64,000 nucleotides of DNA from a virus: the IMG/VR virus record IMGVR_UViG_3300013372_003978, positions 23,688 through 87,687 of that record, one strand, 5' to 3'. Shown piece after piece: positions 3,966-17,364 of this stretch; positions within the stretch are counted from its first letter, which is position 1; each line of letters begins with the position of its first letter. The translations under genes were made by a program, and so were the position numbers. A model generated the notes under the pieces. It saw only the letters and a list, made by a program, of their open reading frames with translations, made no database searches and was not told the origin of the DNA.

Positions 3966-6950
3966 TTAACCTAATGTAATTGTTTTTGTAATCCCATTAA
4001 TTCTTATTTTTAATCCAGTATCTGTATTTGATTCTAACCAAATATCACCATCATTTGGTGCACTTGGTGCTGGACCAACCTCAAGTTTCATAATAGCACT
4101 TGCAGTTGTTGATGCAGCAATATGTAAATTTGCTGTTGGATTAACTACATTTATACCAATTCTACCATTTGTTTGTGCTGACATAATTGGATTACCTAAT
4201 ATTGTTCCATATGTATTTTTTCCAAATAAAACACCGCCAATATTTAGACTATTTGTTGTTCCAGATGGTAATGTTATATTTGTACCAATAATAATATTAT
4301 TTGAACCTAAATTATTAGTACCAAATGTTTTACCAGCACAATAACCAAAGAAATTTGAATAAGATGCATTTGATGCTAGATAACCAGCATTAGTACCAAT
4401 AAAATTTGAATCATTTGCGTATGTTGCATAAGGACCAGCACCCTGACCCATAAAATTTGAACGACTAGCACCTGGTGCACTTTGACCAGCATATGAACCT
4501 ATGAAATTTGAATTTGTTGCACCTGTTGCACTATAACCAGCCCAATAACCAAAGAAATTTGAACGAATAGCATTTATCGCACCATTACCAGCATTACCAC
4601 CAAAGAAATTTGAATTATCAGCATTAGTTGCACCATAACCAGCACTACCACCAACAAAAAATGAACTATTAGCATAAGTTGCATTTTGACCAGCCAGAGA
4701 ACCTAAGAAATTTGAATAACTAGCGTTTGTTGCACTTTCACCAGCTTGATAACCAACAAAAAATGAACCTCTGGCATTTGTCGCATTTCTACCAGCCCAC
4801 ATACCAATGAAATTTGCCTCATAAGCGGCACTTGCATATTGACCAGTTTCGTAACCAATGAAATTTGCACGATAAGCATTAGTTGCACCATAACCAGCAT
4901 TATAACCCAAGAAATTTGATTGACCAGCAGATGTTGCACCATAACCAGCATTCCAACCTAAGAAATTTGATTGACCAGCACTTGATGCACCATAACCAGC
5001 TTGATATCCAAAGAAATTTGAATTAGAAGAGAATTTTGCACCATAACCAGCATTCCAACCAAAGAAATTTGAATAACTAGCAATTGTTGCACCAGAACCA
5101 GCTTGAACACCAAAGAAATTTGAATTACTTGCACCTGTTGCTAAATAACCAGTTCCAGATAATCCAGTTGAAAATAGACTACTAGTATTTACAATTGTTA
5201 TTGGTGATGTTGAACCGTTACTTCCAGTAGATGCTGATATAGTAACTACATTACCACTTGCATCAACACCAATAGGTTGACCTGCACTTGTTGTAGCTGA
5301 ACTAGTAAGTCTTTCTAACCTTAATCCTGATGTATCTGGTGCTTCACTATATATATGAAGTGTATTTGTTGGATTAACAACATTAATACCAATCTTACCT
5401 GTTGTCTGTGCTACGATGCTTGGGTCACCTCCTGTCGTACCATAAGTACCCGTTCCAAATAAAACACCACCTAAATTAATTGAATTTGTTGTACCTGAAG
5501 GTAAACTAATATTTGTTCCAATAATTATATTATTTGAACCTAGGCTACCTAATATTTCGCCATCACCAACACTATAACCAATAAGTGTTGAATAACTAGC
5601 ACCTGTTGCTAGATAACCAACATTATAACCCATAAAATTTGAATATGGTGCATTTGATGCACCATTACCAGCACCAACACCAAAGAAATTTGAAAAACTT
5701 GCATTTTTTGCATTATAACCAGCACTATAACCAAAAAAGTTAGAAAAACCAGCACCTGATGCTTGAAAACCAGCAGAATCACCAAAGAAATTTGAACGAT
5801 AAGCGTTTCTTGCACTTTGACCAGCTCTATTACCCATAAAATTTGATTGATTTGCATTATATGCACCATTACCAGCACCCCAACCTAAAAAATTTGAATA
5901 ACTAGCACCTGTTGCGGCATCACCAGCATAATATCCAATAAAATTTGAATATGGTGCATTAGTTGCTTGATAACCAGCCCTAGCACCAATGAAATTTGAA
6001 TTACTAGCACCTGATGCTTCATAACCAGCATTCAATCCTAAGAAATTTGAATAATAAGCGTTTGTTGCACTACCACCAGCACCACCACCTAGGAAATTTG
6101 ATTGATTAGCACCTGATGCTTGGTAACCAGCACCTTGACCAATGAAATTTGATTGATATGCATTTGTTGCTTGAGAACCAGCTTCTCCACCAAAGAAATT
6201 TGAATAAAAAGCACCTGTTGCGAGCAAACCAGCTCCATTACCTAAGAAATTTGATTGAGAAGCACCTATTGCACCATTACCAGCATTCAATCCTAAGAAA
6301 TTTGAATTATTAGCACCACTTGCTTGATAACCAGCATTTTGACCAAAGAAATTTGATTGATATGCATTAGTTGCACCATAACCAGCTTGCTCACCAAAGA
6401 AATTTGAATTATAACTATTTGTTGCGTTTCTACCAGCACTAGGGCCAAAGAAATTTGAACCACTGGCATTTAGAGCATTTTCACCAGCTTGTGTGCTAAA
6501 GAAATTTGATTGGCTAGCGTTTGTTGCACCATTACCAGCTGTATTACCAAAGAAGTTTGAATTAGTAGCACTTGATGCTTGCCTACCAGCTTGATTACCT
6601 AAGAAATTTGAACCACTGGCATTAGGTGCATTATAACCAGCTTGAAGACCAACAACAAACATATCATTAGATAAAGCCTCAGCACCATCACCAATTGCTA
6701 TAGAACTAGTCCCTGATGCGATAGGTAATATTGTAGGTGGTGTGTCATTTTCAGCATACCATGCAGGGCCATCATAAAAACCAGTTACATTAAACGTAGC
6801 CCCTGTATTGTTTGTAAAAGTAGTTGTACCAGCAGTATATGTAGCACCAGTAACAAAAGTATTTTCATAATACCTTTGTGATATTTTTAAATTACTATCT
6901 AATGATGGATACCCACCAGCTTTATCTTTATTTAACTTACTTTCAAACAT
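3966..6950 (-). CDS. Giant repeat tail fibre/adhesin with two blocks of 17-residue repeats
   Basis: 994 residues. After an N-terminal region of about 113 residues come about 20 tandem copies of a 17-residue unit of the form SNFxGxxAGxxATxAxx. Then follows a connector (GSLGSNNIIIGTN, then GKIGINVVNPTNTLHI). A second block has about 16 copies, followed by a near-identical connector and a short C-terminal domain. The Gly/Ala/Asn pattern is typical of repeat fibres that often precede S74 chaperone domains in Bacteroidota proteins, but no S74 domain is present here. The repeats are shared with the protein encoded at 14614-17364. Role inferred: distal tail fibre or adhesin. The internal connector duplication implies that a whole repeat-connector module was duplicated. 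Confidence 0.8.
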   Translation of the reverse strand: MFESKLNKDKAGGYPSLDSNLKISQRYYENTFVTGATYTAGTTTFTNNTGATFNVTGFYDGPAWYAENDTPPTILPIASGTSSIAIGDGAEALSNDMFVVGLQAGYNAPNASGSNFLGNQAGRQASSATNSNFFGNTAGNGATNASQSNFFSTQAGENALNASGSNFFGPSAGRNATNSYNSNFFGEQAGYGATNAYQSNFFGQNAGYQASGANNSNFLGLNAGNGAIGASQSNFLGNGAGLLATGAFYSNFFGGEAGSQATNAYQSNFIGQGAGYQASGANQSNFLGGGAGGSATNAYYSNFLGLNAGYEASGASNSNFIGARAGYQATNAPYSNFIGYYAGDAATGASYSNFLGWGAGNGAYNANQSNFMGNRAGQSARNAYRSNFFGDSAGFQASGAGFSNFFGYSAGYNAKNASFSNFFGVGAGNGASNAPYSNFMGYNVGYLATGASYSTLIGYSVGDGEILGSLGSNNIIIGTNISLPSGTTNSINLGGVLFGTGTYGTTGGDPSIVAQTTGKIGINVVNPTNTLHIYSEAPDTSGLRLERLTSSATTSAGQPIGVDASGNVVTISASTGSNGSTSPITIVNTSSLFSTGLSGTGYLATGASNSNFFGVQAGSGATIASYSNFFGWNAGYGAKFSSNSNFFGYQAGYGASSAGQSNFLGWNAGYGATSAGQSNFLGYNAGYGATNAYRANFIGYETGQYASAAYEANFIGMWAGRNATNARGSFFVGYQAGESATNASYSNFLGSLAGQNATYANSSFFVGGSAGYGATNADNSNFFGGNAGNGAINAIRSNFFGYWAGYSATGATNSNFIGSYAGQSAPGASRSNFMGQGAGPYATYANDSNFIGTNAGYLASNASYSNFFGYCAGKTFGTNNLGSNNIIIGTNITLPSGTTNSLNIGGVLFGKNTYGTILGNPIMSAQTNGRIGINVVNPTANLHIAASTTASAIMKLEVGPAPSAPNDGDIWLESNTDTGLKIRINGITKTITLG
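4330..5126 (-). repeat. Coding tandem repeat, 51-bp unit, about 16 copies (block 2)
   Basis: Second block of the same 17-residue repeat within the same gene. Some units diverge at the start (ANFIG, SFFVG). The block is followed by the same IIIGTN connector and GINVVNPT sequence as block 1. Confidence 0.9.
5592..6611 (-). repeat. Coding tandem repeat, 51-bp unit, about 20 copies (block 1)
   Basis: Each 51-bp unit encodes SNFxGxxAGxxAxxAxx. Codons for Ser-Asn-Phe are almost invariant (TCA AAT TTC), while the second half of the unit varies. The unit length is kept at exactly 17 codons throughout the block. Confidence 0.9.
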
Positions 6951-6952
6951 AT

Positions 6953-7195
6953 TTATTTATTTTTTAATAAAGCTATTAACTCATTTTCTTCTTCTTTAGA
7001 TATTGGTTTACTTTTTTGTAAGTTAACAATTTCTTTTAATTGTTCTGGGAAAAAAACACCATTTAATGCTTCTTTAGCAGTTTCACATTCTCTGTATGTC
7101 ATTTCAAATGCTTCTTTTATATCATCAACCCAAGTTTCAGTTTCTACTGATTTAAGATATTTGTTGTCTGTTGTTCTTTTTATATATTTTACCAT
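6953..7195 (-). CDS. Small tail-locus protein of unknown function
   Basis: 80 residues, mostly charged and predicted helical, with Lys/Glu-rich ends. It lies between two fibre genes with 2-nt and 17-nt gaps, so it is probably co-transcribed. Small proteins in this position can be fibre assembly chaperones, but no motif supports that here. I do not recognise it. Confidence 0.6.
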   Translation of the reverse strand: MVKYIKRTTDNKYLKSVETETWVDDIKEAFEMTYRECETAKEALNGVFFPEQLKEIVNLQKSKPISKEEENELIALLKNK

Positions 7196-7212
7196 TGTTT
7201 TTTCTTTTAAAT

Positions 7213-8190
7213 TTAATCGTTAAAAACTTCAAATGTTAATGTGTTATTAGGTGCAAATTGATTTTTTATATTGGTTGGCATTGTCAATATTATACCATTT
7301 TCAATGCTTCCATTTACTGAATACGTACCTAAAAAATTAGTACCTATATCACTATTCAATTTTGCAACCAATTCTATCATTGTACTAACTTCAGTATATG
7401 TTTCATTGTAGAATGTCTGAATTAAATCACCACCAACATATAAACTTACTGATGCATTCCCATAAGGAAGACCTGAAACATTTAATCCGTATACTAGTAT
7501 TGGTGTTGTGTCAAAATCTCTTTTGATACTAATTTCAACTGGTGTGTAGTATAGTCCATTATCAGCCAAATCACCACCAGATAACACATCAATAAAAACA
7601 GCACTATCTTTAGTATCAAAACTACTAATACCAGGGATTGGAATTGGAAAATTAAAAGGGTCACCACCACCATCAAAGGGGTATTTAATTTGAGAACTTA
7701 TTTTTGTTCTACTTCTTGGAAATTGATTAATAATAGGTCCTAATGAAGAATTAACACCAATATAATATCCAAACCCACCAAAAGGTGCTTGTTGCCAATA
7801 AATATCAAACCCTAAGTCATTTTCTAGCACATCGACAATCAATTCACCCAAAGAGGATAATTCAGAAGCGTTATCCCAAATTGTAGGTGTTTCCCCTGTT
7901 GCGACAAACACACACCCAGTTTCATTAATAACCCCACTTTGCACGTTAGCAATGTTACTAAAGTCATCACCACTCTGAAATGTTGTTATTGCATAGGTTT
8001 CACCTATAATTAAACCATAATTAAAATAACTCAAACTAGTTCCAGTAATAGAACCTGTTTGTGTTAATAATGCACTATATTTTGCAAAATTATTTGTTGA
8101 TGTACCTGTAACAACCAAACTACCTTGAATTGTTAAATTACCATTTATTGTTTGTCCTGATACGTTGTTTACTATGTATTTTGTTCCCAT
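7213..8190 (-). CDS. Tail fibre-like structural protein
   Basis: 325 residues. The start (NGNLTIQGSLVVTG) is the beta-strand pattern seen at the head of many phage fibre proteins and S74-type fibres. The rest is beta-rich with Gly/Pro segments and no enzymatic motif. It sits between the small gene at 6953 and the oxygenase-like gene. Likely a virion tail component; the exact role is unknown. Confidence 0.6.
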   Translation of the reverse strand: MGTKYIVNNVSGQTINGNLTIQGSLVVTGTSTNNFAKYSALLTQTGSITGTSLSYFNYGLIIGETYAITTFQSGDDFSNIANVQSGVINETGCVFVATGETPTIWDNASELSSLGELIVDVLENDLGFDIYWQQAPFGGFGYYIGVNSSLGPIINQFPRSRTKISSQIKYPFDGGGDPFNFPIPIPGISSFDTKDSAVFIDVLSGGDLADNGLYYTPVEISIKRDFDTTPILVYGLNVSGLPYGNASVSLYVGGDLIQTFYNETYTEVSTMIELVAKLNSDIGTNFLGTYSVNGSIENGIILTMPTNIKNQFAPNNTLTFEVFND

Positions 8191-8192
8191 AT

Positions 8193-8822
8193 TTATTTTT
8201 GAAAATGTCTTTCAATTCTTTTACTTAATCTAACCCTAGGGTCTGTTATTTTTCTATTAACCTCTTCATATGTCAACACAAAACCAAAACTTAAAAAAAT
8301 TCTTCTAGAATTAAATTCGTTGGTCCAATGTTTGTACAATGAAGCTTCAAAACAATATAAATCGGTTTCTTCTATGTTAACCACTTCGTCACCGACATAA
8401 AAATCATAATCCTCAGATAAAATGCTTATATTGCATTTATAATTAACATAACCATCAATCGATGCATCATAATGTGGATTTATCTTTCCACCTTTGTTCA
8501 TATCAACCGCTTGGAGAAAAACATTTTCTTTTGGTATATTTAACTCATTTGAGATTCTATCTATAATTACATGGATAAAATCTGGCAACGGTTCGTTTGA
8601 TACATCAGATATTGACTGAAACTTAGTTATATAATTTGTCAACTCTGTATTTGATATATTGAAAATACATGATTTACCTTTTAGTGTTTTGGATAACTCT
8701 GATAAATGATAATTGCTATCATCACCAGTATGGTTAACAGAATCTATCCATTTAACTATTTGGTTTGCCTCATCTTTTGTGATGAAGTTTTTTTTAATTT
8801 TATATGTTTTCGAATCTACCAT
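8193..8822 (-). CDS. 2-oxoglutarate/Fe(II)-dependent oxygenase-like protein
   Basis: I place the start at the ATG at 8822 (209 residues) rather than 8882, because the longer form would overlap the upstream gene by 83 bases and adds an unconserved-looking N-terminus. The double-stranded beta-helix iron site is visible: H117-x-D119 (PHYDAS) and H165 (KHWTNE), followed by Arg173/174 in a hydrophobic strand, which fits the 2-oxoglutarate salt bridge. Such enzymes hydroxylate proteins, nucleic acids or small molecules. Its place inside the fibre locus suggests a fibre protein as substrate, but that is inference. Confidence 0.7.
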   Translation of the reverse strand: MVDSKTYKIKKNFITKDEANQIVKWIDSVNHTGDDSNYHLSELSKTLKGKSCIFNISNTELTNYITKFQSISDVSNEPLPDFIHVIIDRISNELNIPKENVFLQAVDMNKGGKINPHYDASIDGYVNYKCNISILSEDYDFYVGDEVVNIEETDLYCFEASLYKHWTNEFNSRRIFLSFGFVLTYEEVNRKITDPRVRLSKRIERHFQK

Positions 8823-9069
8823 ATTTCCCAACCTTTTTAAGGTTATGTTTTTCCAAAAATTCTTTTGGACCCATAGCTTCAATAATTGTTAATTCTGCTG
8901 AATCCATAAGTTGTTTTGCTTTTTCATCAGTAACCGACATAACACATAATTTATGTGTTGCTGGCAACTCTCCAGTTGGTGATAAATCTATTTTTAAAAT
9001 ATTATCATTTTTCATTTTTTCTCTTGCTTGAAGAACTTTACCTTCTTCACATAATATACAGATTCTCAT
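8800..9069 (-). CDS. Small protein of unknown function in tail locus
   Basis: 89 residues. It begins MRICILCEEG, with two nearby cysteines, and has a mixed alpha/beta pattern. The stop overlaps the start of the oxygenase-like gene by 23 bases, suggesting translational coupling. The spacing to the upstream beta-helix fibre gene is 10 nt. No family recognised. Confidence 0.6.
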   Translation of the reverse strand: MRICILCEEGKVLQAREKMKNDNILKIDLSPTGELPATHKLCVMSVTDEKAKQLMDSAELTIIEAMGPKEFLEKHNLKKVGKYGRFENI

Positions 9070-9079
9070 ATTTTTGTTA

Positions 9080-12046
9080 TTATTGATTAATATTTGTTAT
9101 TGTTAATATATCGTTTTCATCATAGAAAGATAATCTTTTATCACCACCTTGTCTTTCAAAAATTTGACATGTGTATTGTTCATATACTGATGGGTTAAGT
9201 CCAACACCAGTTACTAATATTACAATATTATCATCAGGGATAGCACCACCAATAGAAGTACCTAATATTGTTATTGTATCACCAGTTACGTATAGTTTAC
9301 CAGCATCGTTTATAGTAACTCCAGTTACAGTACCACCTGAAACATCAATATTGAAAGTTCCATTAATACCTAAAGCGTTAGTTGTACCACCAATATCTGT
9401 ATATAGGTTATCAGTTGCACCAGTTCCAATTGAAGTGTATGTAAATCCTGTTATGTTTCCGTAGTTTGGTGTAAAATCAGTAGTATTAATATTTGTGTTA
9501 ACAACATTCCATTGGAAGTAATCACCTATTGTGTTGTTATAGAAATTATCAGGTATAGAATTATTATAAAAGTATTCACCTACTGTGTTTTCAGAAAAAT
9601 TATTTCCTATTTTGTTACCTTGTGAATCACCATACCCAACACCAAAACCATCACCAGTAATATTATTATTAAACGAGCTCCCAATTTCATTATTCTGAAA
9701 ATCATTAGCTATAGTGTTAGAATTAATATTTACTCCAAAAGTGTTATTGTAAAAGTTTAACCCTATATTATTGTTATAAAACTCACCCATCCATCTATTA
9801 TTACCAACATCACCTAAAAAGTCATTTGATAATGTATAACTGCCAATTTCATTGGTATAAACACTACCTGAAAATTGATTATCAACAACATAAGACTTAA
9901 CATTATTCAACGAAAAATAGTTAAATATTAAATTACCTTTAAAATCGTTACCTATTATATTATCTTCAAAATCACTACCGTTGTTATTTTCTATGTAGAT
10001 TGAATTCCATTCTGTCCCATAAGGTGACACATCTTCGTCCCAACTATTCTCTTCGGCAGTATTATAAATACCACCATTATTACCTCTTCTAATTTCAAGA
10101 CTACCTTCAACAATAACATCTATTTCTGAACCATAGTTTGTTTTTGTAAAATAAACGGTTGCTTCAGAAGTTGGATAAACTTTTGTTCTTTCGTATGAAA
10201 AACCACCACCATTATTGTTTTGTGTCCATTGAGTAAATATAACTTTATGATATTCATCATTAACTGTATCGTGCATTATAAGCTCTTTCCCTAGAATAAT
10301 GTTTGAATAGTTATTATCTAACGAATTATTAAAAGTGTCATAGGTTCTACCAGTTAAATTTTCAATATTGGTATTATCCCAATTAAAATAATCAGTGTTA
10401 CCTAAAGTATTGTTTTCAAAAAAGTTACCTATTTGGTTGTTTTTAAAATTATATGAAATATTATTATTATCTTCAAAATATTCACCAATTTGGTTATCTT
10501 GGAAATAATCACCAATCACATCATTGTGGTTAAAACCATTACCAATATGGTTACCGTAAAAATTATGACCTATGTTTTGGTTGTTGTTAAATCCATTACC
10601 TATAACGTTTTTATAAAAATCACCATTAAGTATGTTATTATTAAATTGGTTACCAATTTGGTTATTTTGAAAATCTTGTTTAATAATATTTTCATAAAAA
10701 TCATTTCCAATTCTATTTCTATAGAATTCAAAATTATCTAAATTACCAAAATCACCTATGGAATTATTATTAAAATCATTACCAATATTGTTATCATAAA
10801 AACCAGAATATATTGTATTATTATAAAAATCATTACCAATTTTATTATTACCAAAATCAGTACTGTTTTCAGTTAATAATCTATTGCTATGAAAATTGTT
10901 TCCAATTTGGTTATTATCCAAATTAAGATTTATAAGGTTTCCATAAAAATAATGACCAATAATACACGTATCAATATCATTTGTTGATACATTTTCGTAA
11001 CAATAATCACCCCATGTGTTGTTTTGATTATCAGTACCAAAAGTGTTATTGTAACAATAATCACCAAATTTATTGCTTTCATACTCACCTTCTAAAAACA
11101 CATTATTGGCTAATATAAAAGGTCCTGCTATATTTAGATAATTATTTGCAAAATTTCCTACATAATTGTTTTTAGCATAGTTTTCCCCTATTGCATGACC
11201 AAATGTTGTATACTCAATAAAATCATTTGTTTTAACATTTGTTCTTTTATAACTGAAATAGTACTCACCACCATCGTTATTTTCACTAACAGCTAAATAA
11301 AATGCCGAACCAAGCCCAGTTGAACCTATTGTGTCACCAGAAACTGTCATAATTGTGTTACCAGATATACTAACTATTTCATAATAATTAGGAAAAGCGT
11401 TAGGTATGTAAATAACATTACCAACGGTTAACGCTGTAAAAGATGTATTTACACCATTAACAATACCGTCATTTCCTAATTCTACAGTACCATTTAAACG
11501 TAGACCTTCTCTATGTGTATACAAACGATATCTTTTAAATAAAATTGTTCTATGGTCGTAATCTGTTCTATTATTGAATTCATCAATTCTTTCTGTTATC
11601 CTACCATAAGCTACTGAATTAGTAACTTCAGTCGCACTAAAAGTCCAATCATACTGAATCTTATCGTTAGGATACAATGGTTGATAAGCATTTATAGAAA
11701 TTGTCGATATGCTAGTGGCAAAAACTATAATAGGTTCAACATTCCCTTGCTTAGTATTACCAGTAGTTATTGGATTATTTTCGATATCAAAATCTGGTTG
11801 GTCATAACATGTTTTAAAATCAGTTATCATATAAAAACTACCAGTACTTAAACCGCTAGTACTTATAGTACTCACTAAACCTGTGTATGTTAAATTTGTT
11901 ATGTCACCACCACCACCATGGATTTGACCGTTTTCATCTTTTGCTTTGATGTTAAAATCACTTAAATCAATAAATAGATTTGACCCACCAGCTACTGGTG
12001 TTGGGACTTGTGATGCGTTTTGACCTTGAAATTGAATATATTGCAT
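9080..12046 (-). CDS. Asn-rich beta-helix tail protein
   Basis: 988 residues. The N-terminal 300 residues are a mixed beta region. From about residue 300 to 880 the sequence is dominated by short imperfect repeats of the type NxIGNxFxxN, with Asn about every fifth position, interrupted by one insertion (about residues 590-690). This fits a right-handed parallel beta-helix with Asn ladders, as in tailspikes and antifreeze-like solenoids. The C-terminus (about 890-988) is a separate domain ending in FYDENDILTITNINQ. Likely a tail spike or fibre shaft; no catalytic residues could be assigned. Confidence 0.7.
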   Translation of the reverse strand: MQYIQFQGQNASQVPTPVAGGSNLFIDLSDFNIKAKDENGQIHGGGGDITNLTYTGLVSTISTSGLSTGSFYMITDFKTCYDQPDFDIENNPITTGNTKQGNVEPIIVFATSISTISINAYQPLYPNDKIQYDWTFSATEVTNSVAYGRITERIDEFNNRTDYDHRTILFKRYRLYTHREGLRLNGTVELGNDGIVNGVNTSFTALTVGNVIYIPNAFPNYYEIVSISGNTIMTVSGDTIGSTGLGSAFYLAVSENNDGGEYYFSYKRTNVKTNDFIEYTTFGHAIGENYAKNNYVGNFANNYLNIAGPFILANNVFLEGEYESNKFGDYCYNNTFGTDNQNNTWGDYCYENVSTNDIDTCIIGHYFYGNLINLNLDNNQIGNNFHSNRLLTENSTDFGNNKIGNDFYNNTIYSGFYDNNIGNDFNNNSIGDFGNLDNFEFYRNRIGNDFYENIIKQDFQNNQIGNQFNNNILNGDFYKNVIGNGFNNNQNIGHNFYGNHIGNGFNHNDVIGDYFQDNQIGEYFEDNNNISYNFKNNQIGNFFENNTLGNTDYFNWDNTNIENLTGRTYDTFNNSLDNNYSNIILGKELIMHDTVNDEYHKVIFTQWTQNNNGGGFSYERTKVYPTSEATVYFTKTNYGSEIDVIVEGSLEIRRGNNGGIYNTAEENSWDEDVSPYGTEWNSIYIENNNGSDFEDNIIGNDFKGNLIFNYFSLNNVKSYVVDNQFSGSVYTNEIGSYTLSNDFLGDVGNNRWMGEFYNNNIGLNFYNNTFGVNINSNTIANDFQNNEIGSSFNNNITGDGFGVGYGDSQGNKIGNNFSENTVGEYFYNNSIPDNFYNNTIGDYFQWNVVNTNINTTDFTPNYGNITGFTYTSIGTGATDNLYTDIGGTTNALGINGTFNIDVSGGTVTGVTINDAGKLYVTGDTITILGTSIGGAIPDDNIVILVTGVGLNPSVYEQYTCQIFERQGGDKRLSFYDENDILTITNINQ

Positions 12047-12050
12047 AGTT

Positions 12051-12674
12051 TTAAATTATAATACCTGTACCTGTTATTGTTGAGTTTCCATTAAATATTA
12101 CTGCACCAGCAACATTAATTAAACCATCATTTGTTATGTTGCTATCTTTTAGTAATAAATTACCACCGATAAATATTTGTGAAAATTTGTTAAATGTTAA
12201 ATCACCTATTGTTATAGGTGTACCTGTTTGTAATACTAAATCAGTATCTACTAAAACATAATCACCTGAAATTAAAATAGTTTCATCACTTTTTAAAATC
12301 TTATTTTGATTTTCTTCCCAATGTTTTACGTTAGTTGTAAAACCACTAACTTCAATTGAATTACCGTATGAATTAATAAGAGTAGCAATACCAGTATTGT
12401 TATTGTATGTACCACCAGTTAATCCTGGGTTAGTTGTATAACCACTAATTTCGATTGAATTACCATCTGAATTATTAAGTGTGGTAATACCAGTATTGTT
12501 ATCGTATGTACCACCAGTTAATGATGGGTTAGTAGTATCAATATATGGGGTAATAAAATCAGTTAAACCACTTAACGTCATTTGTTTTGTTTCTCCACTA
12601 TTTACAATAGGAAATACATCACTTAGTGATGGATTATTATTGTATTCAAATGCGGTTATCTTTTTATTAGACAT
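12051..12674 (-). CDS. Small repeat tail protein
   Basis: 207 residues with two near-identical 36-residue repeats, each containing GGTYxNNTGI, followed by a beta-rich tail resembling a short beta-helix (about 130-207). The N-terminus (KKITAFEYNNNPSLSDVFPIVN) resembles the attachment segment of phage fibres, where a short helix-strand anchors to the baseplate or a preceding fibre. It has its own late-type promoter motif immediately upstream. Function inferred from context only. Confidence 0.6.
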   Translation of the reverse strand: MSNKKITAFEYNNNPSLSDVFPIVNSGETKQMTLSGLTDFITPYIDTTNPSLTGGTYDNNTGITTLNNSDGNSIEISGYTTNPGLTGGTYNNNTGIATLINSYGNSIEVSGFTTNVKHWEENQNKILKSDETILISGDYVLVDTDLVLQTGTPITIGDLTFNKFSQIFIGGNLLLKDSNITNDGLINVAGAVIFNGNSTITGTGIII

Positions 12675-12685
12675 GGTTAGATTTG

Positions 12686-12699
12686 TTTATAATAAATAT
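12686..12699 (-). promoter_or_regulatory. Phage late-type promoter motif
   Basis: Minus-strand ATATTTATTATAAA ends 11 nt before the ATG at 12674. It matches the element found upstream of many presumed virion genes in this window. Confidence 0.6.
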
Positions 12700-12745
12700 G
12701 TTATTTAATAATAAAATTACTTTAAATATGATTAATTTTAAAATA

Positions 12746-14611
12746 TTACCAATTTATTCCGTAACCATCTTGTTGTAATATAAAATATGTGTTTTCTTGT
12801 AGTATTAAATTATCATCTATAAACCCATATTTATTAGCTTCAGCCGCATAAGCATTTTGAATTTGACATAAAGACATATCACAAATATTAAATTTAAATT
12901 GTGATATACCACCGATAAAACTACCAGCAAAATTTGTTTCGATTGGTAATCCTCTATCTGATAAATCCAAACCTCCAAATGTTTGACTTTCTATCAACCC
13001 TTGACTACCACCACCTAAACTAAAATTAAATGGAACACCAACTTGTTTAGCTTTATATTCATCAAGTCTTTTACCAATAAACTCTGGGAAATTATATACA
13101 GTAAATTTTAACATACCATTAATATAAAACTTAAGTTTGCCGTTTCTAGGTTTTGCTAATTTTAAATCACATTCTGATTTATTATCTGCAACATATTTAA
13201 TCACTATATTATACCAATATCTAGGGTCAATTAAATTAGGTATTGAATAAGCTTCATGAACTGTAGCCCCAGTTATGTATTTTCTATCAGCACCATTCGT
13301 TATACACGTACCTGTAACTGTTAATAATCTATATCCAATACTACCATCGGGTTTAATTCTAAAACCTAATGCGTTATCAATTATATCAATATTATAATCA
13401 ATACTAGTTTCAGGTGTATTGCGGCCACTAAATGAATAAACGGTTTCATTACCTAAATTATCACCAACACTACCACAAAATGTGGTATTACCACTTGAGG
13501 CTCTACCATAAATTAAAAATGGATTTTGTTCATTGGTTAATTTTTTTCTAACATTAGCAACTGGAATACCACCACCATTATAAGTATATACTGTTTGAGC
13601 ACCTAATCCATCAAGACTATTACCACAACCATTATATACATTATAAACATTTGGTGTTGAACCACTAGTATATATAAGATTAGAATTAATACCACTTAAA
13701 GGACTTGGTGAAGCATCATATGCTCTACCATATATTAAGAATTCATTCGTGATTAAATCAATATCAGTTCTTGGTGGGTCTAACGAAATACCAAGACCAT
13801 AATCACCAGCAATGATAATTTCATCTTCTTTTGGTATTGTACACCATTCACTTACAGTTTCACCACTAGTACAACCACTTGTGTTACAATCAATGGTACA
13901 ACCAGTATCAGAACCTTCCCATTTATTCCAAAATTTATTTTCAGCACGAGTACCCATATAAAAGAAAAAACCACTATTATTTGGGTGCGTATCATTAAGT
14001 ATTGTATCACCTGCTGTTGCAAATTGTTTTGTAGTTAACCAAAATTCAGCTACCCACGCATGATTAACTCTAGTTGGTAAAATTTGATAATTTGAACCAT
14101 CAATTTTATAATATCCTTGATAAAAACCACCATAAAGGCTAAGAAAATTTTGAATTAAAGGTGTTGTTATGTCTAGAATAATTTCATGTGGGTATACATA
14201 ATTACCTGTTGTACCTGTTACCATGTGCATATAAAATCTATTATCATTAGCTGGTATAGTCAATGTAGAACCTGTCAATGCCGACAATAAATCTAAATTT
14301 AATTTATCGTCAGGGTCTTTATCAAAAGTTATTAAACCATTGTCAATACCTGTTAAACCAATAGTGTCAAAAGTATAACCAGTATTTACCGAACCATTCC
14401 AAGTTACAAGGCTATAAATATTATTTGACTCATTATTATTATATATGTTTGAATTATTAAAATCGTACCATACAACAAAACAATCACCTGAAGATAATGG
14501 CCCACAATAAGGTGCAGGACCTTCATCGTTAGCTAAATAAAAATCCCAATAATCACTGTTTGATAATTTTAGGTTTAGTTTATTAAAGTTAAAATTTTTA
14601 ATATTTCCCAT
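12746..14611 (-). CDS. Large tail protein, possible LamG/concanavalin-like domain
   Basis: 621 residues. It has cysteine pairs (CTIDCNTSGC region, about 235-245), aromatic/Gly-rich strands and several repeated segments ending in LIYGRA (three copies, about residues 290-370). The C-terminal part (KLKFYINGMLKFTV, then FAGSFIGGISQFKF) has the alternating strand pattern of a concanavalin A-like lectin fold, which would suit glycan binding. Two nucleotides separate it from the chaperone-bearing fibre gene upstream. Probably part of the receptor-binding apparatus; the fold call is tentative. Confidence 0.6.
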   Translation of the reverse strand: MGNIKNFNFNKLNLKLSNSDYWDFYLANDEGPAPYCGPLSSGDCFVVWYDFNNSNIYNNNESNNIYSLVTWNGSVNTGYTFDTIGLTGIDNGLITFDKDPDDKLNLDLLSALTGSTLTIPANDNRFYMHMVTGTTGNYVYPHEIILDITTPLIQNFLSLYGGFYQGYYKIDGSNYQILPTRVNHAWVAEFWLTTKQFATAGDTILNDTHPNNSGFFFYMGTRAENKFWNKWEGSDTGCTIDCNTSGCTSGETVSEWCTIPKEDEIIIAGDYGLGISLDPPRTDIDLITNEFLIYGRAYDASPSPLSGINSNLIYTSGSTPNVYNVYNGCGNSLDGLGAQTVYTYNGGGIPVANVRKKLTNEQNPFLIYGRASSGNTTFCGSVGDNLGNETVYSFSGRNTPETSIDYNIDIIDNALGFRIKPDGSIGYRLLTVTGTCITNGADRKYITGATVHEAYSIPNLIDPRYWYNIVIKYVADNKSECDLKLAKPRNGKLKFYINGMLKFTVYNFPEFIGKRLDEYKAKQVGVPFNFSLGGGSQGLIESQTFGGLDLSDRGLPIETNFAGSFIGGISQFKFNICDMSLCQIQNAYAAEANKYGFIDDNLILQENTYFILQQDGYGINW

Positions 14612-14613
14612 AG

Positions 14614-17364
14614 TTAAAAGCTTTCTAAATTAGTACGTTTCCATCCTGTACTACTTTTAATATATAAATAGTCATCATCTCTAGTAACGTTACCTAAATT
14701 TCCATTGATATCTGTTGAACCGCTTGGAGTGTAATTAGGCATTGTAATTTTATTTGGTATAAAATCATTATTTGTTGTCCAATTTCCATTCTCATCAGTA
14801 ATTAACTCCGCACCTAAATCAAGACCCATTGCGTGTAATACAGTAATACCACCACCCAAAGCAGTTGTTATATTTCCATTATGATTTAAATCAATATTGT
14901 TATCTTCAGCTAATATTGTTTGTGTTTGTAAATTTCCAACTAAAGTTGTACCACTAGTTAATTCTTTTATTGCTTCTACTAATAAAGCAACAGTGTTTTC
15001 ATAATGAACACCCATATATTTTTCTGGTGAATTATTATTAACAAACGTTAATTCAGGGACAATACTTTCAACTTCTTGAGCAATAAACCCAATTCTAGTA
15101 GGACCATCTCCATCAATCCAATCATAACTTACACCTCTAAGTTGTTTAACTTTATCTAAAGCATTTGTTAGCGTTTCAATATTATGTTTTAATCTAATAT
15201 CAGAAGTATTTGTTGTTAAAACACCACTAGAAGTATAATATAAAGCACCAGCTGATGTTGCAGCACCAATTGTTCTAATCCTTGCGTTTCCAGATACATC
15301 CAATGATTCTGTAGGTGTAACCACATTAATACCAATTTTACCTGTTGTTTGTGCAGATATACTTGGATTACCTACTATTGTTGAATATGTATTTATTCCA
15401 AATAATACTCCACCTATATTCATTGAATCTGTTGTTCCAGCAGATAACGATATATTTGTTCCTATTATTATATTATTTGAACCAAGGCTACCTAATACAG
15501 TAGCATTACCAACATTATATCCAAATAAATTTGAATTACTTGCATTTGTTGCTTGATAACCAGCATAATATCCAAATAAATTTGACCTACTTGCACCTGT
15601 TGCTTGATAACCAGCTCTAAGACCCAAGAAATTTGAATTAAATGCGTCTGTTGCATAAGCACCAGCATTACCACCAAAGAAATTTGAATATTGTGCGTTT
15701 TTCCCATCTTGACCAGCACCAGAACCTATGAAATTTGAATTAGAACTACCTGTTGCGTTCCAACCAGCATAAGAACCCAAAAAATTTGAATTAAAAGCGT
15801 TATTCGCTCCATTACCAGCCCAATAACCCATGAAATTTGAAGCACTAGCATTTATTGCATCTTGACCAGCATTTTGACCTAAGAAATTTGAACCTTGGGC
15901 ATCCGTTGCACCGTAACCAGCATTTTGACCTAAAAAATTTGAACGTTGGGCATTTGTTGCTTGATAACCAGCACTATTTCCAAAGAAATTTGAGTTGTTT
16001 GAACCAGATGCTTGATAACCAGCATTAACCCCAAATAAATTTGAATATGTTAATCCAGTCGCATCTTGACCACTCCCAATTAATCCAGTTGAAAATAAAC
16101 TATTTGTATTTATAATAGTTATAGGTGAACTAGAACCTATTATTACCCTTCCACTTGAATCGAAACCTAAATTGTTTATGCTAGTTCCACTTACAAGTGT
16201 TTTAATATTTAATTGGTCAACGTATGTTGTGTCTGCAACCAAACCAGTTATATTTGCACCTAAAACAATTGTATTACTACCACCAGCAACTGAATAATAA
16301 CCATGAACAAATGAAGTAGTTCCAGATGCTGTACTATTATTACCACCAGCATGTGAACTAGTATTCATAGCTCTTGTACTTAAACCTTCAGCATGAGAAT
16401 AATCACCACCTGCTATTGTTTCAAATCCTTCAGCATGCGATGTACTACCACTTGCAATACTATAACCTTCAGCATGACTAATACCACCACTTGCAATTGA
16501 ATCAGCACCTTCAGCGTGACTATATAAACCACTAGATATTGTTTGATAACCTTCAGCATGTGAAAAACCACCAGAAGCTAATGTACGAATACCTTCAGCA
16601 TGGTCACCATTTGTTGTTGCTGATGTAGCATTACCTTCAGCATGTGAATAATCACCAATTGCGTAAGTACCAGAACCCTCAGCCACAGAAAAACTACCAC
16701 TAGCAACACTAGTACCTCCATTTAATGTTGCCGAATTAGGTCCAGTACTAAATACCCAAACAGGTGTTCCGCTCCAACCACCTTTACCTTCAGAATCAAC
16801 ACATACCCATGAATTTCCAATTATTGGATTATTTGTAATTATAAGGTCTTGTGTTCTAGTTATACCAGAAACATCATTCCATATTGTTCTACCAGTAAAA
16901 TCTAGAGTTGAAGCTGATAAAAAATCAAGTATTTCAGTTTGAACATTCCCAACATAATTTCCACCACCTAAATCAATAAAGCTAAGAGGTGTTATATCAA
17001 AAGAAACCCCACTATATGCTGACGCAACAATATTACCATCAACTGTTATATAAGATGATGGTACAAAAGCTAAAGCATTTTGTGTAATTCCAGAATTTGA
17101 TGGTGTAATAGCTGATAAACTATTAATTGCAATATTCATATCTGGATTATACCACGAATAAACAGTTGTTGCTGAATTACCTGAAAATGTACTTAATACT
17201 GTTGATGAACTATATGTAATACCTGTAGTCACTAAATTAGGACCTGTTGGTAATGAGCTAAATGGCACACCAAATGAGGTACCACCAGATAAAACAGTAA
17301 ATGTTTCTATGCGTTGTTTAACTTGTCTGTTACTTGAAAAGTCTAATTTTGTTCTAAATGCCAT
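14614..17364 (-). CDS. Tail fibre with SHAEG and 17-residue repeats and C-terminal S74 chaperone domain
   Basis: 916 residues. Order: beta-rich N-terminus (1-210); YadA-head-like SHAEG repeats (about 225-350); 11 copies of the SNFxGxxAG repeat (about 440-620); IIIGTN and GINVVTPT connector; then the intramolecular chaperone domain of peptidase S74 fibres starting near residue 720 (DIRLKHNIETL, then GFIAQEVESIVPEL). In this family the domain drives trimerisation and cleaves itself off. Unusually, about 100 further residues follow. It is the first gene of the minus-strand tail operon and has a late-type promoter 11 nt upstream. Strongly supported as a trimeric tail fibre. Confidence 0.88.
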   Translation of the reverse strand: MAFRTKLDFSSNRQVKQRIETFTVLSGGTSFGVPFSSLPTGPNLVTTGITYSSSTVLSTFSGNSATTVYSWYNPDMNIAINSLSAITPSNSGITQNALAFVPSSYITVDGNIVASAYSGVSFDITPLSFIDLGGGNYVGNVQTEILDFLSASTLDFTGRTIWNDVSGITRTQDLIITNNPIIGNSWVCVDSEGKGGWSGTPVWVFSTGPNSATLNGGTSVASGSFSVAEGSGTYAIGDYSHAEGNATSATTNGDHAEGIRTLASGGFSHAEGYQTISSGLYSHAEGADSIASGGISHAEGYSIASGSTSHAEGFETIAGGDYSHAEGLSTRAMNTSSHAGGNNSTASGTTSFVHGYYSVAGGSNTIVLGANITGLVADTTYVDQLNIKTLVSGTSINNLGFDSSGRVIIGSSSPITIINTNSLFSTGLIGSGQDATGLTYSNLFGVNAGYQASGSNNSNFFGNSAGYQATNAQRSNFLGQNAGYGATDAQGSNFLGQNAGQDAINASASNFMGYWAGNGANNAFNSNFLGSYAGWNATGSSNSNFIGSGAGQDGKNAQYSNFFGGNAGAYATDAFNSNFLGLRAGYQATGASRSNLFGYYAGYQATNASNSNLFGYNVGNATVLGSLGSNNIIIGTNISLSAGTTDSMNIGGVLFGINTYSTIVGNPSISAQTTGKIGINVVTPTESLDVSGNARIRTIGAATSAGALYYTSSGVLTTNTSDIRLKHNIETLTNALDKVKQLRGVSYDWIDGDGPTRIGFIAQEVESIVPELTFVNNNSPEKYMGVHYENTVALLVEAIKELTSGTTLVGNLQTQTILAEDNNIDLNHNGNITTALGGGITVLHAMGLDLGAELITDENGNWTTNNDFIPNKITMPNYTPSGSTDINGNLGNVTRDDDYLYIKSSTGWKRTNLESF
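15500..16044 (-). repeat. Coding tandem repeat, 51-bp unit, about 11 copies
   Basis: Same 17-residue unit as in the gene at 3966-6950, with the same invariant Ser-Asn codons and the same downstream connector. This is a paralogous repeat block about 9 kb away. Confidence 0.9.
16320..16690 (-). repeat. SHAEG (trimeric-adhesin head-like) coding repeats
   Basis: About eight imperfect 14-16 residue units containing (S/D)HAEG and ASG, resembling the left-handed beta-roll of YadA-type adhesin heads. Confidence 0.75.

Follow-up and report, generated by a model that had tools for sequence, protein, structure and literature searches.

At least three fibre genes of one large phage are built from a 17-residue repeat, whose blocks appear to be replaced or lost between close relatives

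Fibre genes and repeat blocks

The window analysed here, 64,000 nucleotides in length, corresponds to G000:C1:23688-87687 within a virus record of 87,687 bases. The record is that of a tailed phage, with matches to portal, major head protein, head maturation protease, terminase and DNA polymerase families. Among named phages, the portal best matches those of Microcystis phage Mel-JY01 and Flavobacterium phage immuto (38–39%), and a megablast search of the region against named phages gave no match. Contigs carrying relatives reach 306–362 kb. Hence, the record probably represents part of a large genome.

Fibre gene A (3966..6950, minus strand) is an intact open reading frame for a protein of 994 aa. 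An N-terminal MFESKLNKDKA region is followed by repeat block 1 (5541..6611, minus strand; ~20–21 units of 51 bp), a connector (GSNNIIIGTNISLP...GKIGINVV; 5376..5540, minus strand; residues 470–525), a leader, block 2 (4308..5123, minus strand; 15–18 units, including two SFFVG variants), a second connector (GSNNIIIGTNITLP...GRIGINVV; 4143..4307, minus strand; residues 881–936) and a conserved C-terminus (NDGDIWLESNTDTGLKIRINGITKTITLG). Fibre gene B (14614..17364, minus strand) is likewise intact and encodes 916 aa. Its product has a SHAEG/YadA-head-like stretch, one block of 11 17-residue units (15484..16044, minus strand), a connector (GSNNIIIGTNISLSAG...GKIGINVV; 15319..15483, minus strand; residues 627–682) and a Peptidase_S74 intramolecular chaperone (PF13884, residues 721–772, E = 1.2e-18); PF13884 is absent from gene A. 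The preliminary description placed the repeat in two genes, and A and B do both carry it, but they are joined by gene C, which lies on the minus strand beyond the window (G000:C1 8138-15550) and has ~27 of the same units. Thus, at least three fibre genes of one large phage are built from a single 17-residue repeat.

Each unit has 17 aa (51 bp), and the three blocks of A and B together contain 46 to 49 of them, in agreement with the earlier count of about 47. A position weight matrix finds 46 strong units (20 and 15 in A, 11 in B), and a looser rule that adds the two SFFVG units finds 48. Tandem Repeats Finder independently detected 51-bp arrays at 4332-5125, 5561-6641 and 15508-16046, and a degenerate unit pattern matched 34 times in the window, as compared with no match in 100 dinucleotide-preserving shuffles. 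A connector follows each block, as described previously. The GINVVNPT ending that was thought to accompany it each time is limited to the two connectors of A; B has GINVVTPT and C has GINVVNPS. The closest matches of the four connectors in this genome are one another.

Several neighbouring genes merit mention. The fibre cluster includes a second kind of repeat protein, of 988 aa (9080-12046), in which motifs such as NNxIGNDFYNN recur and which matched no Pfam or PHROG model. Beside it lies a 207-aa gene (12051-12674) whose N-terminus resembles, by eye, that of fibre genes of the relatives G006, G009 and G010; two 99-bp tandem copies, 88% matching, lie within it at 12330-12538. Outside the window, amid fibre genes, is an 853-aa DUF285 repeat protein (G000:C1 5089-7647; PF03382, E = 3e-165). 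The product of 8193-8882, inside the fibre cluster, weakly resembles an aspartyl/asparaginyl hydroxylase (E = 0.05, short of the cut-off); modification of fibre residues by this product is speculative. Sugar and glycosylation genes follow one another in a long series over positions 20224-47777, including several glycosyltransferases, GDP-mannose dehydratase and epimerase, a nucleotidyltransferase, a class II aldolase and a uridine-kinase-like protein.

The same units also occur in bacterial sequences. Four loci (L074, L076, L078 and L081) from Candidatus Nomurabacteria and other uncultured bacteria encode large proteins whose N-termini are hydrophobic and which have the same leader, 17-residue units and connector. 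The L074 frame has 1879 aa and ~63–71 units; that of L076 has 1443 aa and, by eye, an S74-like C-terminus. Both adjoin a site-2-protease-like gene, which may mean that the locus is conserved but varies in unit number. The collagen-like repeats of a putative prophage fibre in Flavobacterium sp. ZT3R18 (L080) occur together with the same units and connector.

Codons and variable positions of the unit

We counted codons over 75 units of genes A, B and C. The preliminary description of nearly invariant Ser-Asn codons holds for this larger set: Ser1 is TCA in 72 of 73 units and Asn2 is AAT in 64 of 70. Ala8 is always GCT (69/69), Ala12 is GCA in 62 of 69, Phe3 is TTC in 48/66 to 50/70, and Ser16 is never TCA (0/29). 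The other part of the unit changes, also as described: about half of its positions are free to vary, with an entropy of 2.2–3.6 bits at about eight of them (6, 7, 10, 11, 13, 14, 16 and 17). The position-specific codons exceed by far a background matched by dipeptide context. Codon-context bias, tested as a source of the fixed codons against codon use in the same dipeptides, is therefore insufficient.

Ser1 TCA is found across most of the clade and is therefore ancestral, at least in part. Phe3 differs: in units of the relatives G006, L037, L038 and L040, which have genomic backgrounds similar to that of this genome, it is mostly TTT rather than TTC (p = 1e-5 to 4e-11, values that do not correspond to a number of events because the units have common ancestry). 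The genome-specific Phe3 codon would thus be a better sign of within-genome homogenisation than Ser1.

We also considered GCTGGT, which matches 6 of the 8 bases of E. coli Chi, as a recombination signal. This reading was dropped because Ala-Gly favours GCTGGT here in any case and the full GCTGGTGG occurs only 12 times.

Predicted fold

An AlphaFold2 model of block 2 of gene A with its connector has one short strand per 17 residues, with a pLDDT of 93–99 over most of the repeats. The 51-bp units are thus predicted to encode a beta-solenoid shaft with one strand per unit. This monomer model matched no solved structure in the PDB with E below 0.1; its best match in BFVD is annotated as a YadA-like head (E = 2.8e-8). 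A PDB sequence search with gene A gave no match, and no Pfam or PHROG model matched its repeat block. In gene B, YadA_head (PF05658) matches residues 339–365, below the cut-off (0.0024) and outside the 17-residue block. With no PF05658 match over the 17-residue repeats, we do not assign them to the YadA-like head repeat family, although the model makes a YadA-type head or stalk function plausible.

Repeat blocks in close relatives

Are repeat number and order constant among related phages? A search of viral contigs with a two-unit DNA pattern found only two further loci. Over ~10 kb of core sequence, G006 is 98.0–98.3% identical to G009 and G010, and G009 and G010 are 99.0% identical to each other. 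The fibre gene adjoining the DNA polymerase has 792 aa and 25 strong units in G006, where the fibre gene is at the end of its contig, and 5 units in G009 (440 aa) and G010 (471 aa); here, as throughout, the relatives compared are metagenome assemblies, in which long repeats may be mis-assembled. The N-terminal part of the G006 gene is ~95% identical to both G009 and G010, the middle block is 67–76% identical, and identity to G010 rises to 98.9% only in the last ~165 bp. A second locus carries a 461-aa gene without units in G006 and a 691-aa gene with 11 units in G010, the N- and C-termini being the same. Hence, repeat number and order are not constant even at 98–99% core identity.

Similar differences affect genes A and B. 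Orthologues of A, recognised by their MFESKLNKDK start, have 20 and 15 units in the window, 15 and 6 in L038 (709 aa, with the same ends and two-block plan) and 39 in L040. In L037, with 84–86% core identity to this genome, gene A is missing, as are its neighbours between the polymerase and a 621-aa gene. In the G001 homologue of B, six units have been duplicated in tandem over 306 bp (306/306 identical), and a third half copy follows (153/153 identical).

Together, these comparisons indicate that repeat blocks have been lengthened, swapped or lost between close relatives while neighbouring genes remained nearly unchanged. To a large extent, the differences look as if entire blocks had been replaced between conserved ends of the gene, not as if units had been gained one by one.

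Other close pairs differ less. G009 and G010 have the same number of 17-residue units; they differ by a 93-bp duplication of another N-terminal repeat in G010, and at several variable codons by two or three bases (AAA to CGT, AAC to GGT), whereas the core has almost no adjacent differences. We found no donor for these codon-sized patches in four records. No difference separates G010 from G011 over 18,469 bp, a stretch that includes two repeat genes; this argues against rapid hypervariation.

Age and exchange of units within the genome

The units of the window have a mean identity of 66–70%, and the longest exact tract common to repeat blocks is 29 bp. Exact tracts, unit identity and unit order gave no sign of recent duplication or exchange among them. 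The order of units has no significant higher-order period in either block of A or in B; a lag of 7 in gene C (p = 0.006 among ~30 tests) was not counted. The window's own units are thus old.

Nonetheless, A, B and C resemble one another in their units and connectors more than they resemble relatives. The nearest neighbour of a unit outside its own gene lies in another gene of this genome in 39–76% of cases, with 13–20% expected. Codon style and connectors cluster by genome and not by gene, the pattern expected from copying between genes. These observations suggest exchange among the genes of one genome; the likeness of A, B and C would fit either past copying between genes or lineage-specific gene duplication.

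Discussion

What process could generate these differences? The preliminary description proposed unequal recombination, within or between genes, that lengthens, shortens or swaps repeats. Differences between relatives in the number, order and presence of blocks, together with the 306-bp duplication in G001, agree with this proposal, and codon style and connectors suggest exchange between genes; recent exchange within the window itself was not supported. We consider it likely that the units form solenoid shafts in tail fibres or spikes, and that exchange at conserved flanks, combined with unequal exchange within arrays, best accounts for the pattern. Homologous exchange at the N-terminal leader, the connector and the C-terminus would replace or remove whole blocks, the partners being co-infecting phages or fibre genes of one genome. 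Unequal exchange or slippage between units in register could lengthen or shorten blocks, and short conserved tracts (TCAAATTTCTTTGGT, GCTGGT and GCAACA) would keep units alignable. Any in-register event would preserve the reading frame. Selection would then act on fibre length and on the variable, probably exposed, positions; altered fibre length or receptor binding would be the outcome expected by analogy. This scheme involves no reverse transcriptase. Large relatives have frames of 341–372 aa with a RecA-like match that is weak and falls short of the family cut-off; no such match was found in this 87.7-kb fragment.

An alternative explanation is that the solenoid architecture is old, such that common origin and purifying selection on the fold account for the likeness of units and codons, with little recombination now. 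The divergence of the window's units, none of them a recent duplicate, and the identity of G010 and G011 over 18.5 kb are both as this would predict. However, an old architecture does not readily account for relatives that are 98–99% identical and yet differ in unit number and block presence, for the perfect duplication in G001, or for a genome-specific codon style, and we regard it as unlikely. Replication slippage alone, changing unit number independently in each gene with no homologous recombination, is compatible with the tandem duplications in G001 (306 bp) and G010 (93 bp). Yet the replacement of a whole block between conserved ends in G006 versus G010, with Ser1 codons TCA versus TCT, needs sequence exchange, as does the similarity of connectors between genes, and slippage alone seems to us less probable again. 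Targeted hypermutation of variable codons, by a diversity-generating retroelement or similar, could explain the multi-base codon differences between G009 and G010, but it is highly improbable given that AAC to GGT also alters a non-adenine base and that reverse transcriptase (PF00078), already unseen in the preliminary description, was found neither in the 87.7-kb contig nor in eight related records, of which three exceed 300 kb.

We tentatively propose, while thinking it improbable, that the fibre genes draw on a common stock of 17-residue cassettes, moved by recombination between genes and phages and perhaps exchanged with Patescibacteria surface proteins that have the same leader, units and connector. 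The fibre set would then be a combinatorial repertoire that needs no retroelement.

A pattern first described from one sequence has now been tested in relatives: at ~98% core identity, a fibre repeat block is replaced or lost and the flanking genes are hardly changed. If units circulate between fibre genes, large phages could diversify several receptor-binding candidates at once, free of retroelements. The relatives found here are natural material for testing such circulation.

How does this compare with known systems? Gene B recalls S74 fibres in its S74 domain and, in its weak YadA_head match, the YadA-like head repeats known from trimeric autotransporters and from phage fibres; the best BFVD match of the model of A is also annotated as a YadA-like head. 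The repeat block of A differs in matching no Pfam or PHROG model, and its monomer model gave no PDB match at E < 0.1. The best named phage record for gene A is Sphingomonas phage PAU gp257 (43% identity over 47% of the query), a product that has no name in its record; we know of no study of its repeats. In the tail-fibre adhesin of phage T4, domain duplications alter the copy number of small segments and host range (Tetart et al. 1996, doi 10.1006/jmbi.1996.0281, as cited in PMC2248197). The likeness to T4 gp37 is that the copy number of a fibre segment changes by duplication; the T4 case concerns a small adhesin domain in one gene, whereas here long arrays of 17-residue units lie in at least three. 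Tandem copies of N-terminal fibre domains differ among the related Xanthomonas oryzae phages OP1, Xp10 and Xop411 and have been linked to host range, with short repeats proposed as the substrate (PMC2248197). Those copies involve domains 1-2-3, a region of ~118 aa in one gene, and sharing among several genes is not reported in that paper. A further system, to judge from its title as cited in PMC6466182, replaces a variable part by exchange between conserved flanking motifs (1998, doi 10.1006/jmbi.1998.2047); here the exchanged part would be a repeat block with its connector. In Campylobacter phage CP220, extragenic repeats have been shown to occur in mixed lengths (PMC2853527). As with T4 gp37 and OP1, fibre segments differ in copy number or order between close relatives. 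Hence, the mode of fibre evolution is already known, and what is new is an uncatalogued repeat family and its sharing among several genes.
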